Shown here: positions 1,108-51,560 of the stretch, piece by piece
Numbering within the stretch: position 1 is the stretch's first letter
Layout: each line of letters opens with the position of its first letter
Origin: Alphaproteobacteria bacterium
Lineage (GTDB): Bacteria > Pseudomonadota > Alphaproteobacteria > JANQMY01
Assembly: GCA_028289425.1 (NCBI GenBank)
Contig: JANQPL010000017.1
Location: forward strand, 372,001-436,000
Direction: 5' to 3'
Length of the DNA: 64,000 nt
Program-made: the position numbers and the translations under genes
The notes under the pieces: model-generated
What the model saw: the letters and a program-made list of their open reading frames with translations, nothing else
What the model was told of the DNA's origin: nothing
Database searches by the model: none

Positions 1108-1186
1108 CCCGGCCACCCGCTCCCCCTCCCAACCACCCGAACTAGGGTACCCTTGGGGTGGTTGGGAGGGGGAGCGGGTGGCCGGG
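1108..1186. repeat. Long perfect hairpin with GGTACC-containing loop, copy A
   Basis: The arms at 1108-1138 and 1156-1186 are 31 bp exact reverse complements. The 17-nt loop contains the palindrome AGGGTACCCT. It fills the gap between two convergent genes. No T-run follows on either strand, so it is not a standard intrinsic terminator. Related hairpins occur at 20668-20740 and 50329-50440. Confidence 0.9.
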
Positions 1187-19786: not shown

Positions 19787-19825
19787 AAAAAACCCCTCCC
19801 GCGGACATCGTGGGAGGGGTTTTTT
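19787..19825 (-). terminator. Strong bidirectional terminator hairpin upstream of rtcB
   Basis: Arms of 14 bp (19787-19800 and 19812-19825) pair perfectly around an 11-nt loop. The stem is CCCCTCCC/GGGAGGGG flanked by A and T runs, so a T-run follows the stem on both strands. No plus-strand gene reads into it, so it most likely ends a minus-strand transcript starting near 20001, or works as an attenuator 65 bp before rtcB. Confidence 0.8.
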
Positions 19826-20071: not shown

Positions 20072-20164
20072 CGTCATCCTCGCGCAAGCGAGGATCCAGT
20101 AACCAATGTTTTTTGTGATCCGATGAATCCCCGAATACTGGATCCCCTCTTTCGAGGGGATGAC
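20072..20164. repeat. REP-like inverted repeat with GTCATCC/GGATGAC ends
   Basis: The element starts CGTCATCCTCGCG and ends AGGGGATGAC. It contains two hairpins, CCTCGC/GCGAGG and CCCCTC/GAGGGG, and a GGATCCAGT/ACTGGATCC inverted pair around an AT-rich centre. Similar elements lie at 22537, 25258 and 30205. Confidence 0.75.
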
Positions 20165-20243: not shown

Positions 20244-20651
20244 ATGGCCGTCACAGGGCAATGCCTTTGCGGGCAGGTGAAATATGAAATGCAAAACGCG
20301 CCGGCCATGACGGGCGTGTGTCATTGCAAGAACTGCCAAAGACAAGCGGGTTCTGCGTTTTCAACACTTGCCGGTGTGCCGAAGGCTGAATTCAAATTCA
20401 CGGCGGGCGAGCCAAAGCTCTACGAAGACAGCGACACCAAGAGCGGCAATACGGTACAGCGCTATTTCTGCGGCACGTGCGGCTCGCCGATTTACTCCGC
20501 CATTCCGGATCAACCGGATACCTTGTTTTTGAAAACCGGCACAATGGACGACACCGCCGGTTTCAAACCTATGTTCCATGTTTGGTGCTCGACGAAGCAA
20601 GACTGGGTACAACTTGACGAGGGCGTGCCCCAAATGGCGCAACAGACGTAG
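20244..20651 (+). CDS. GFA/CENP-V family zinc protein
   Basis: A 135-aa GFA-fold protein. Zinc ligands are visible as GQCLCG (residues 6-10), CHCKNC (about 28-33) and CGTCGSP (about 77). The family includes glutathione-dependent formaldehyde-activating enzyme, but most small stand-alone members have no proven activity. GGGAGG at 20232-20237 supports the start. It is followed by palindrome B and an SDR gene. I would call it GFA family without naming a substrate. Confidence 0.9.
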   Translation: MAVTGQCLCGQVKYEMQNAPAMTGVCHCKNCQRQAGSAFSTLAGVPKAEFKFTAGEPKLYEDSDTKSGNTVQRYFCGTCGSPIYSAIPDQPDTLFLKTGTMDDTAGFKPMFHVWCSTKQDWVQLDEGVPQMAQQT

Positions 20652-20667: not shown

Positions 20668-20740
20668 ACCGTCCCACTCCCCCTTCCCAACCACCCCCAG
20701 GGTACCATGTCGGGTGGTTGGGAAGGGGGAGTGGGACGGT
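20668..20740. repeat. Long perfect hairpin with GGTACC-containing loop, copy B
   Basis: Arms at 20668-20696 and 20712-20740 are 29 bp exact reverse complements around a 15-nt loop containing GGTACC. It lies between two genes on the same strand. The arms resemble copy A, but differences in one arm are matched by complementary changes in the other. Confidence 0.9.
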
Positions 20741-20755
20741 TAAGCAATTCAAGCA

Positions 20756-21592
20756 ATGACAAATTATCTCGAAGACAAAGTTATCATCGTCACCGGCGCG
20801 GCCGGTGGATTTGGCCGGATCGTCAGTGAAAAAGCGGCCGCGCGGGGCGCCAAGTTGGTGTGCGCCGACATCAACGAAGAGGAGTTGGGCAACACGGTTT
20901 CCAACATCACGTCAGGCAATGGTGCGGCCACCGCGAAAGTTACCGACGTGACCGACCTTGAGCAGATGAAGGCGTTGGCGGCGCAGGCGGTGGAGCACTT
21001 CGGGCGCATCGACGTCATGGTCAACAACGCGGGCACCATGCCGCTCGCTTTTTTTGCCGACCACAAGGACGCAGCCACGGCATGGTCCCGCTGCATCGAC
21101 ATCAACATCAAAGGCGTCCTGCACGGCATCACCGCTGTTTACGACCAGATGATGGCGCAGGGCCAGGGGCATGTGGTGAACCTGTCGTCCATCTACGGTA
21201 ATTTCCCGGTGGTGGGGGCGGGGGTTTACGGGGCCACCAAGGCGGCGGTGAACTTCTTGTCCGAATCTCTGCGCGTGGAATCCCAAGGCAAGATCAAGGT
21301 GACCATCGTAAAGCCCACCGGCGTTCCGGCGACGGGCTTGTCGTCGGCCATCGTGAATGACCAAGCCGTCGTCGGCATACTTGGTCAGAACGCGGAAAGT
21401 TATTGGGCCAAAATGATGAGTGTCATTGGCGGGGAGGCCGACAAAGAACTGTCAGACCCCGATAGCGTGCAATACAGCGTATTGGATCCCGATCACCTGG
21501 CGGACCAGGTGATCTACGCGATCGACCAGCCCTGGGGCGTTTCCATCGGCGACATCACTGTGCGCGCATCTGGCGACGGCTACATATTATGA
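20756..21592 (+). CDS. Short-chain dehydrogenase/reductase
   Basis: A 278-aa classical SDR. It has the cofactor motif TGAAGGFG (TGxxxGxG) near residue 14, VCADIN with an Asp at the end of beta-2 favouring NAD(H), NNAG near 93, the catalytic Ser in NLSSIYG near 143 and YGATK (Tyr, Lys) near 157. It oxidises or reduces an unknown alcohol/ketone. Sixteen bases separate it from hairpin B, and the GNAT gene starts 13 bp after it, suggesting co-transcription. Confidence 0.9.
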   Translation: MTNYLEDKVIIVTGAAGGFGRIVSEKAAARGAKLVCADINEEELGNTVSNITSGNGAATAKVTDVTDLEQMKALAAQAVEHFGRIDVMVNNAGTMPLAFFADHKDAATAWSRCIDINIKGVLHGITAVYDQMMAQGQGHVVNLSSIYGNFPVVGAGVYGATKAAVNFLSESLRVESQGKIKVTIVKPTGVPATGLSSAIVNDQAVVGILGQNAESYWAKMMSVIGGEADKELSDPDSVQYSVLDPDHLADQVIYAIDQPWGVSIGDITVRASGDGYIL

Positions 21593-49795: not shown

Positions 49796-50305
49796 ATGAT
49801 CCGAGTTTTGGCATTCTTCTTTGGCCTGCTGATGGCCGCAACGGTGGCCCATGCGCAAGCCGAGGCGCCGCCGGTCGAGCCGGCCGAACCTAAGAAACCG
49901 TCCCATGAAGGCTATTACTATCCGGCCATTACCAGTCAGGAAGTCTACGTGGCACGGGCGCGCAACAATCCGCAGATCGAACGGGACAGCCGCATCCGCT
50001 TCGTCACCGAATTGACGGCGCTGCAATCCCGCGCCGCCTATGCGCCCCAATACGCGTTGTTTGCGAAAGGGTCCGATGCTCAGAAGCTGATCATTGTCGC
50101 CCTCAATGACGATGTGTTCGGGACCCTTTACAGGGCGCGCGGTGTGCTTGCTCAACTCACGGCTTACGCCAGGCGGACGCCATTCTTCATCGAGAACAAT
50201 GTGGATGACATTTTCACGTTCTTCGATTTGCTGAAGTATTTGGGATTCGAACGGCTGACGATTTCCGACGGGAAGACTTTCTCCCACCAGGTGGATTTCG
50301 AATAA
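49796..50305 (+). CDS. Secreted protein of unknown function next to moaA
   Basis: A 169-aa protein with a signal peptide (IRVLAFFFGLLMAATVAHAQ) and then an Ala/Pro-rich spacer. The body (HEGYYYPAITSQEVYVARA, LIIVALNDDVFGTLYRARGVLAQLTA) is compact and unlike families I can name. Homologues are often labelled molybdopterin-guanine dinucleotide biosynthesis protein A, a label I remember but cannot support from the sequence. It is convergent with moaA, separated by hairpin C. AGGGG lies just before ATG 49796. Confidence 0.7.
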   Translation: MIRVLAFFFGLLMAATVAHAQAEAPPVEPAEPKKPSHEGYYYPAITSQEVYVARARNNPQIERDSRIRFVTELTALQSRAAYAPQYALFAKGSDAQKLIIVALNDDVFGTLYRARGVLAQLTAYARRTPFFIENNVDDIFTFFDLLKYLGFERLTISDGKTFSHQVDFE

Positions 50306-50328: not shown

Positions 50329-50440
50329 CCATCCCACTCCCCCGGCCCGTGAACCTTGTCCTCGGGCCGCGCGAAGCGCGGACCCGGGGGCACCCCAATG
50401 GTACCCTGGTTCGGGTGGTTGGGCCGGGGGAGTGGGATGG
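50329..50440. repeat. Long hairpin with GGTACC loop, copy C
   Basis: The outer arms 50329-50348 and 50421-50440 match perfectly over 20 bp. The interior holds GGTACC near 50400 and a nested hairpin GGGCCGCGC/GCGCGGACCC. It lies between two convergent genes, in the same setting as copy A. The right arm keeps GGGTGGTTGGG, but its partner on the left has been replaced by an insertion. Confidence 0.88.
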
Positions 50441-50516: not shown

Positions 50517-51560
50517 CTACCCCCCGGTCACCGACATGTGCCGGTTGACGGCCGGCTTGTTCTGGCGGCGGTCGATCACGAAATCATGACCTTTGGGCTT
50601 GCGGCCGATGGCTTCGTCGATCGCCTGCATGAGCAAATCGTTGTCGTCGCTCGCCCGCAACGGCGCGCGCAGATCGGCGGCGTCTTCTTGGCCCAGGCAC
50701 ATGAACAACGTGCCGGTGCAGGTAAGCCGCACCCGGTTGCAGCTTTCACAGAAATTGTGGGTGAGCGGCGTGATAAAGCCGAGCCGGCCGCCGGTTTCCT
50801 CCACACGCACATATCGGGCGGGCCCGCCGGTCCGGTCCGGCAGATCGGTCAGGGTCCAATATTGTTTCAGTTCAGCGCGCACGGCGGACAAGGGCAAATA
50901 TTGATCGGTGCGGTCACCGTCAATGTCACCCAGCGGCATGGTTTCGATCAGGGTGAAATCCATATCGCGGTCATGGGCCCAGCTAACCATGTGCGGGATC
51001 TCATGGGCGTTGACCCCCTTAAGGGCCACCGCATTGATCTTAATTTTCAGACCGGCGTCTTGGGCTGCATCGATGCCGTCCAAAACTTGATCGAGCCGGC
51101 CCCAGCGGGTGATCTCTTTGAATTTGTCCGGGTCGAGGGTGTCGACGGATACGTTGATCCGACGCACGCCCGCGGCGTAGAGGTCCTTGGCATATTTGCG
51201 AAGCTGGCTGCCATTGGTGGTCAAAGTCAGCTCATCCAAATCGCCGGTGTCCAAATGACGGCCCAGACTTTCGATCAGCGTAAGGATCCCCTTGCGGACC
51301 AGCGGTTCGCCGCCGGTCAAACGCAGCTTACGGACGCCGCGCTGGACGAACGCCGAACACAGCCGGTCCAATTCTTCCAGGGTAAGAACCTCGGTCTTCG
51401 GCAGAAAGGTCATGTCCTCTGCCATGCAGTAAACGCAACGGAAATCGCAGCGGTCGGTGACCGACACGCGCAAATAGCTCACATGGCGGCCGAACGGATC
51501 GATCAGATCCGGCTTGGCGCCCGGTGCTTCCATGAAAGTGGGAACGGTGGTTTCGGTCAT
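50517..51560 (-). CDS. moaA: GTP 3',8-cyclase MoaA
   Basis: A 347-aa radical SAM enzyme. The N-terminal cluster motif CDFRCVYC lies near residues 36-43, TTNGSQL near 114, and the second cluster [21 protein letters not shown] near 260-280 (pieces), ending in GG as required for MoaA. It makes 3',8-cyclo-GTP, the first step of molybdenum cofactor synthesis, together with MoaC. No other moa genes are adjacent. The secreted protein upstream in the convergent position is unrelated in enzymology. Confidence 0.95.

Follow-up and report, generated by a model that had tools for sequence, protein, structure and literature searches.

Long intergenic repeats with an inverted-repeat organisation are known in Alphaproteobacteria from the Caulobacter CIR repeats, which are defined by CcrM GANTC sites. 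REP elements measure 20-40 bp and carry a CCA-like tail as well as a tag, either GTAG or CGTC; the CGTC REPs, which have stems of 8-9 bp and no associated transposase, predominate in Alphaproteobacteria (PMC3733652). Other gene-less intergenic palindromes of ~100 bp, such as ERIC/IRU and Bru-RS, are reported from a single genus or family; Bru-RS measures 103-105 bp, with 35-40 known copies (PMC2267715), and RU-1 measures 127 bp (PMC2759123). At individual loci, quasipalindromes have been described as hotspots of template switching by DNA polymerase (PMC7202029, PMC8604942), a process that, between inverted repeats, leads to homogenisation of the arms and inversion of the spacer (PMC8604942).

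Within a stretch of 64,000 nucleotides (the window) of an alphaproteobacterial genome of 5.42 Mb (G000), three hairpins, A, B and C, share a palindromic element, hereafter H. These copies and their neighbouring genes, the latter predicted by a simple hexamer-based gene finder developed for this analysis, are the following:

2-1105, + strand: gene preceding copy A, with a stop codon adjoining the hairpin
1108-1186, no strand: H copy A, its loop carrying AGGGTACCCT at 1144-1153
1198-2226, - strand: gene converging on copy A
20277-20651, + strand: gene whose end just precedes copy B
20668-20740, no strand: H copy B, with loop AGGGTACCAT at 20699-20708
20756-21592, + strand: short-chain dehydrogenase gene, starting just past copy B
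49796-50305, + strand: gene whose end just precedes copy C
50329-50440, no strand: H copy C, with loop ATGGTACCCT at 50398-50407, branched by an insert
50344-50391, + strand: insert of 48 nt nested within the left arm of copy C, itself a dispersed repeat in G000
50517-51560, - strand: gene converging on copy C

A preliminary description of the window had reported hairpins with arms of 31, 29 and 20 bp, of which the hairpins themselves and the last two lengths held (B, 20668-20696/20712-20740, 29 nt and 100% complementary; C, outer arms 50329-50348/50421-50440, 20 bp), whereas the arms of copy A (1108-1141/1153-1186) measured 34 nt, 33 of them paired (97% complementary). It had rightly placed two of the three, A and C, between convergent gene ends; copy B lies between tandem genes. 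All three folded far better than their shuffles, none of which was equally good, both as single-strand DNA (z of -12.4, -10.2 and -7.6 for A, B and C) and as RNA of the + strand (-11.9, -9.3 and -7.6). Copy C was recovered by covariance model R1 as a 148-nt match, and its insert has other copies in G000 and in the sister species (G001) at 93-100% identity, recurring within further H copies (L315, L316). Palindromic repeats nested in H arms or loops comprise this 48-nt one and another of ~105 nt, GCGTTTCC...GGAAACGC; the sites are window 50344-50391, L315, L316, C6:41503-41777 and C17:57235-57549. Elsewhere in the window, an ordinary bidirectional intrinsic terminator (19787-19825) consists of a hairpin bordered by an A-run and, opposite, a T-run, and an inverted pair, GTCATCCTCGCGCAAGCGAGGATCCAG... 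(20073-20164), looks like a CGTC-type REP dimer separate from H.

Like REPs, H is a short intergenic palindrome present in many copies, and the preliminary description had compared it to REP/BIME elements. This comparison did not withstand closer inspection: with arms of 29-34 nt and a length of ~80 bp against 20-40 bp, H is two to four times too long, its loop is asymmetric and conserved, and its foot varies between copies and genomes with no constant tetranucleotide tag, as judged by eye from alignments. Mobilisation of H as a REP/BIME-type element by a REP-associated tyrosine (Y1) transposase is accordingly a highly improbable explanation, despite the high copy number of this intergenic palindrome and the occurrence of Y1 genes in 7 of the 8 genomes checked. 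The search for a partner Y1 gene that had been suggested covered eleven loci and found H near a single one, in G000 at a distance of ~0.4 kb, where the Y1 gene has a different hairpin of its own beside it, unlike the association expected of GTAG-type REPs; moreover G311, a genome with a single pattern match, lacks Y1, and both length and tag misfit the REP definition (PMC3733652). No transposase or other partner gene of H was found; CGTC REPs likewise have no associated transposase. One Y1 transposase gene, at L188:1094-1881 (G000:C19:351.4k), carries its own, different long hairpin (GGTGACAGTGCAC...).

H resembles ERIC/IRU and Bru-RS in being a gene-less intergenic palindrome of about their length, but its core occurs in at least 17 families, a separation drawn from the descriptions of those repeats rather than base by base. 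It differs from the Caulobacter CIRs, as defined above, in that GANTC is absent from the H consensus A1/A2. Searches of Rfam gave no match at gathering score for the window; H itself drew matches below threshold only, nearly all of them from microRNA families, as generic hairpins are expected to do. A search of open-licence papers, covering the arm sequence and palindromes of sphingomonads or Alphaproteobacteria, turned up nothing recognisable. H is thus a real and, as first supposed, apparently undescribed family of interspersed palindromic DNA repeats, which are themselves a known kind of element.

This family is patchily distributed across Alphaproteobacteria. An exact-core pattern, AACCACCC-N3-20-GGGTGGTT, matched 44 times in G000 (reversed control, 0), 39 times in G001 and 10 times in a genome of another family (G002), which disposes of the idea that only three copies exist. 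With a covariance model derived from 17 copies, 150 strand hits were obtained at ~80 places in G000, and the real copy number may exceed ~80, 150 of 1360 candidates having been scored; the G000 counts come from searches and from roughly 1 Mb of stretches mostly picked for holding H. H accounts for over half of the 22 strong hairpins detected along 400 kb of contig C3. Among GTDB species genomes, a pattern fixing just the inner core and AGGGTA matched at least 108 stretches, in nearly all of which the outer arms, left free by that pattern, were conserved; the titles of these records are alphaproteobacterial wherever a class or lower rank is given, and otherwise read merely Pseudomonadota bacterium or Bacterium. 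A second model, with 11 candidates scored per genome, detected H in 26 of 385 sampled alphaproteobacterial genomes, belonging to 17 families. In a phylum-wide sample, whose proportion of other classes was not displayed, 9 of 9 matched genomes were alphaproteobacterial.

H also occurs on plasmids of Novosphingobium, Sphingomonas and Sphingopyxis, one plasmid copy lying between convergent genes; a window copy had no match in the plasmid collection, nor a Novosphingobium copy in phage records. Two near-identical viral contigs carry H (L335:9177-9210 and L336:1740-1773), and the ORFs of the former, read by eye, include Mu-like head and portal-type proteins; a viral contig of this type is a possible vehicle for the transfer of H. 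In a Minwuiaceae MAG (L053, L068, L074, L075, L090), the flanks beyond H are common to the copies and genome-specific, e.g. AGAGTCTGTTCAAGA...TGCGTCGCGA.

H arms are ~30 bp long and built of four G/C-runs, with the consensus GGCCNGCCC[GA]CTCCCCC[NN]CCCAACCACCC, part of the core having been fixed by the pattern used to collect the copies. In distant members, the inner core is altered on both arms, from AACCACCC to GACCACCC, GGCCACCC or AACCTCCC. The loop of ~16 nt is asymmetric and reads 2-3 nt, AGGRTA, N3, T and 4-5 nt. GGTACC, which the preliminary description had presented as the core of the loop, is indeed found in 3 of 3 window copies and is the commonest loop form, yet it is not the conserved one: the conserved unit is AGGRTA-N3-T, and the rest of the decamer varies.

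In a class-wide alignment of the arms, the positions of the G/C-runs hardly vary while the linkers vary freely, with compensation. Such a pattern could be expected if the arms were conserved as G-quadruplexes, or as G-runs read by a protein, the palindrome presenting one per strand; in line with this, the G3+N1-7 motif is matched by 130 of 144 arms, and in 400 kb 20 H arms were counted against 42 G4 motifs, roughly half of the total. We nevertheless regard this explanation as improbable, given that a perfectly complementary arm competes with a quadruplex and that the invariance of the core was partly imposed by the search pattern.

H lies mostly just past the ends of genes. Only 3 of 72 copies in the G000 stretches fall inside predicted ORFs and 62 of 63 copies in other genomes are intergenic; the median distance from the end of a standalone copy is 16 nt to a stop codon but 61.5 nt to a gene start, and 21 of 62 copies in other genomes occupy convergent gene pairs, compared with 87 of 503 neighbouring pairs. 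T-runs are depleted, as TTTTT occurs within 40 nt of 1 of 144 strand ends in G000 against 6% in the background, in agreement with the initial observation that no terminator T-run follows the hairpins; a role as intrinsic terminator was rejected on this ground. A putative role of the hairpin in protecting transcript 3' ends is plausible.

These placements, directly past stop codons and enriched between convergent genes, together with the extreme stability of the RNA fold whichever strand is transcribed (-71 to -91 kcal/mol), are what would be anticipated from a functional RNA marking a bidirectional transcript 3' end, through T-run-free termination or exonuclease protection, with selection on the RNA fold generating the co-variation of the arms. 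The depletion of T-runs and the lack of an Rfam family speak against such an RNA element, as does the comparative evidence from the arms themselves.

Arm changes are two-sided within G000, between genomes and at loci orthologous between the sister species. An alignment of 42 copies, most of them drawn from different genomes, had 94.8% of its arm cells paired. It contained 160 two-sided changes, compared with 48 for shuffled sequences and no more than 35 for slid controls; one-sided changes were few, and G-U type intermediates were rare relative to two-sided changes, which goes against the RNA reading. The dispersed family with genome-wide co-varying arms anticipated from three hairpins is thereby substantiated. 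Among 333 arm pairs compared at orthologous loci of G000 and G001, 16 differed by compensated double changes and 26 in ways not perfectly compensated, and the loop had opposite orientations at 8 of 16 loci. In the cleanest pair (L235:3229 versus C3:275092), the two copies agree in their outer arms and near flanks and differ just by one inner arm pair, changed on both sides, and by an inverted loop. Some orthologous copies may nonetheless be replacements by other copies rather than in-place changes.

The ortholog of copy A in G001 (L299:10145) retains H with a compensated arm change, and that of copy B has kept the left arm, the remainder being replaced by another palindromic repeat. At several orthologous sites only one of the sister species has H, and several sites occupied in G001 are empty in G000 or filled by other repeats. 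Since sites stand empty in G000 and copy B is broken in G001, individual H copies look dispensable. At three places in G001 (L286:209, L289:1513 and L272:12914), a recurring AAA...CCGATATTGGCCAA-like stretch takes the place of one H arm, resulting in a branched structure.

Copies missing or broken between sister species fit poorly with a functional RNA, and selection on the fold would not predict an inverted loop at half of the orthologous loci; we therefore judge the RNA element unlikely. Homogenisation of arms with spacer inversion is the published signature of template switching between inverted repeats (PMC8604942), so that co-variation alone is no proof of selection on the fold, and because H exhibits both outcomes, template switching is the best-supported source of its co-variation. 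What sets H apart from the quasipalindrome hotspots, whose homogenised arms and inverted spacers it shares, is that the process appears to act across a whole dispersed family. The preliminary description had offered either copying through a hairpin intermediate or selection on the folded form, and the compensated double changes and loop inversions make the former the likelier; from these sequence comparisons, we infer that the co-variation in H arose by template switching.

On balance, H probably represents non-coding interspersed palindromic repeats of Alphaproteobacteria whose pairing results largely from template switching. The hairpin or cruciform would cause the replicating strand to switch templates inside the palindrome, so that a mutation in one arm would be copied into the other and the loop would sometimes be inverted. 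Perfect pairing would then be largely a product of the mutation process, since template switching copies arm changes across. More tentatively, H may spread as a non-autonomous element through an activity acting in trans, and it may be tolerated mainly just past stop codons, where its hairpin could stabilise the transcript 3' ends of both strands. The conservation of the core motif across distant families argues against a purely mutational account; as mutation alone does not explain it, either the motif must be recognised by something or H must have been transferred horizontally in recent times.

As regards a non-autonomous transposon of the MITE type, the observations are mixed: about half of the H copies are flanked by direct repeats of 21 bp (R), but no partner gene was found, and no clean target duplication was detected at standalone H copies or elsewhere outside the R-flanked subset. 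R is close to 35 of 72 H copies, usually on both sides and ~126 bp apart, and both R-H-R-H-R arrays and solo R sites occur (examples in G000: L204, L320 (C5:350399) and C12:270270-270541; in G001: L328). The prevailing sequence of R is ATGGGTGCATGGGGTTCATCC in G000 but ATGGGCGCATGGGGTAGATCC in G001, the two species differing at nearly all sites including orthologous ones, and R is absent from G002. Among five candidate loci compared, a solo R in G001 faces R-H-R in G000 at L330 and, less surely, at L331. Other candidates were set aside: L268 opposes H-R to H-R-H-R, L291 contains half an H with R, and the orthology of L328 and L324 is doubtful.

Such arrangements could reflect a cassette (R, R-H-R, R-H-R-H-R) growing and shrinking at R by a site-specific or replicative process, in which both R and the H loop would be recognised by co-evolving proteins, and R would therefore be species-specific, orthologous loci included. 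We consider this a speculative and rather unlikely reading.

Hairpins with perfectly co-varying arms are usually taken as proof of selection on the RNA or DNA fold. With a large natural family available in sister species, in which co-variation goes hand in hand with loop inversion, H makes a mutational explanation of co-variation directly testable on genomes, and it offers a loop motif conserved class-wide together with a species-specific companion repeat undergoing concerted change.
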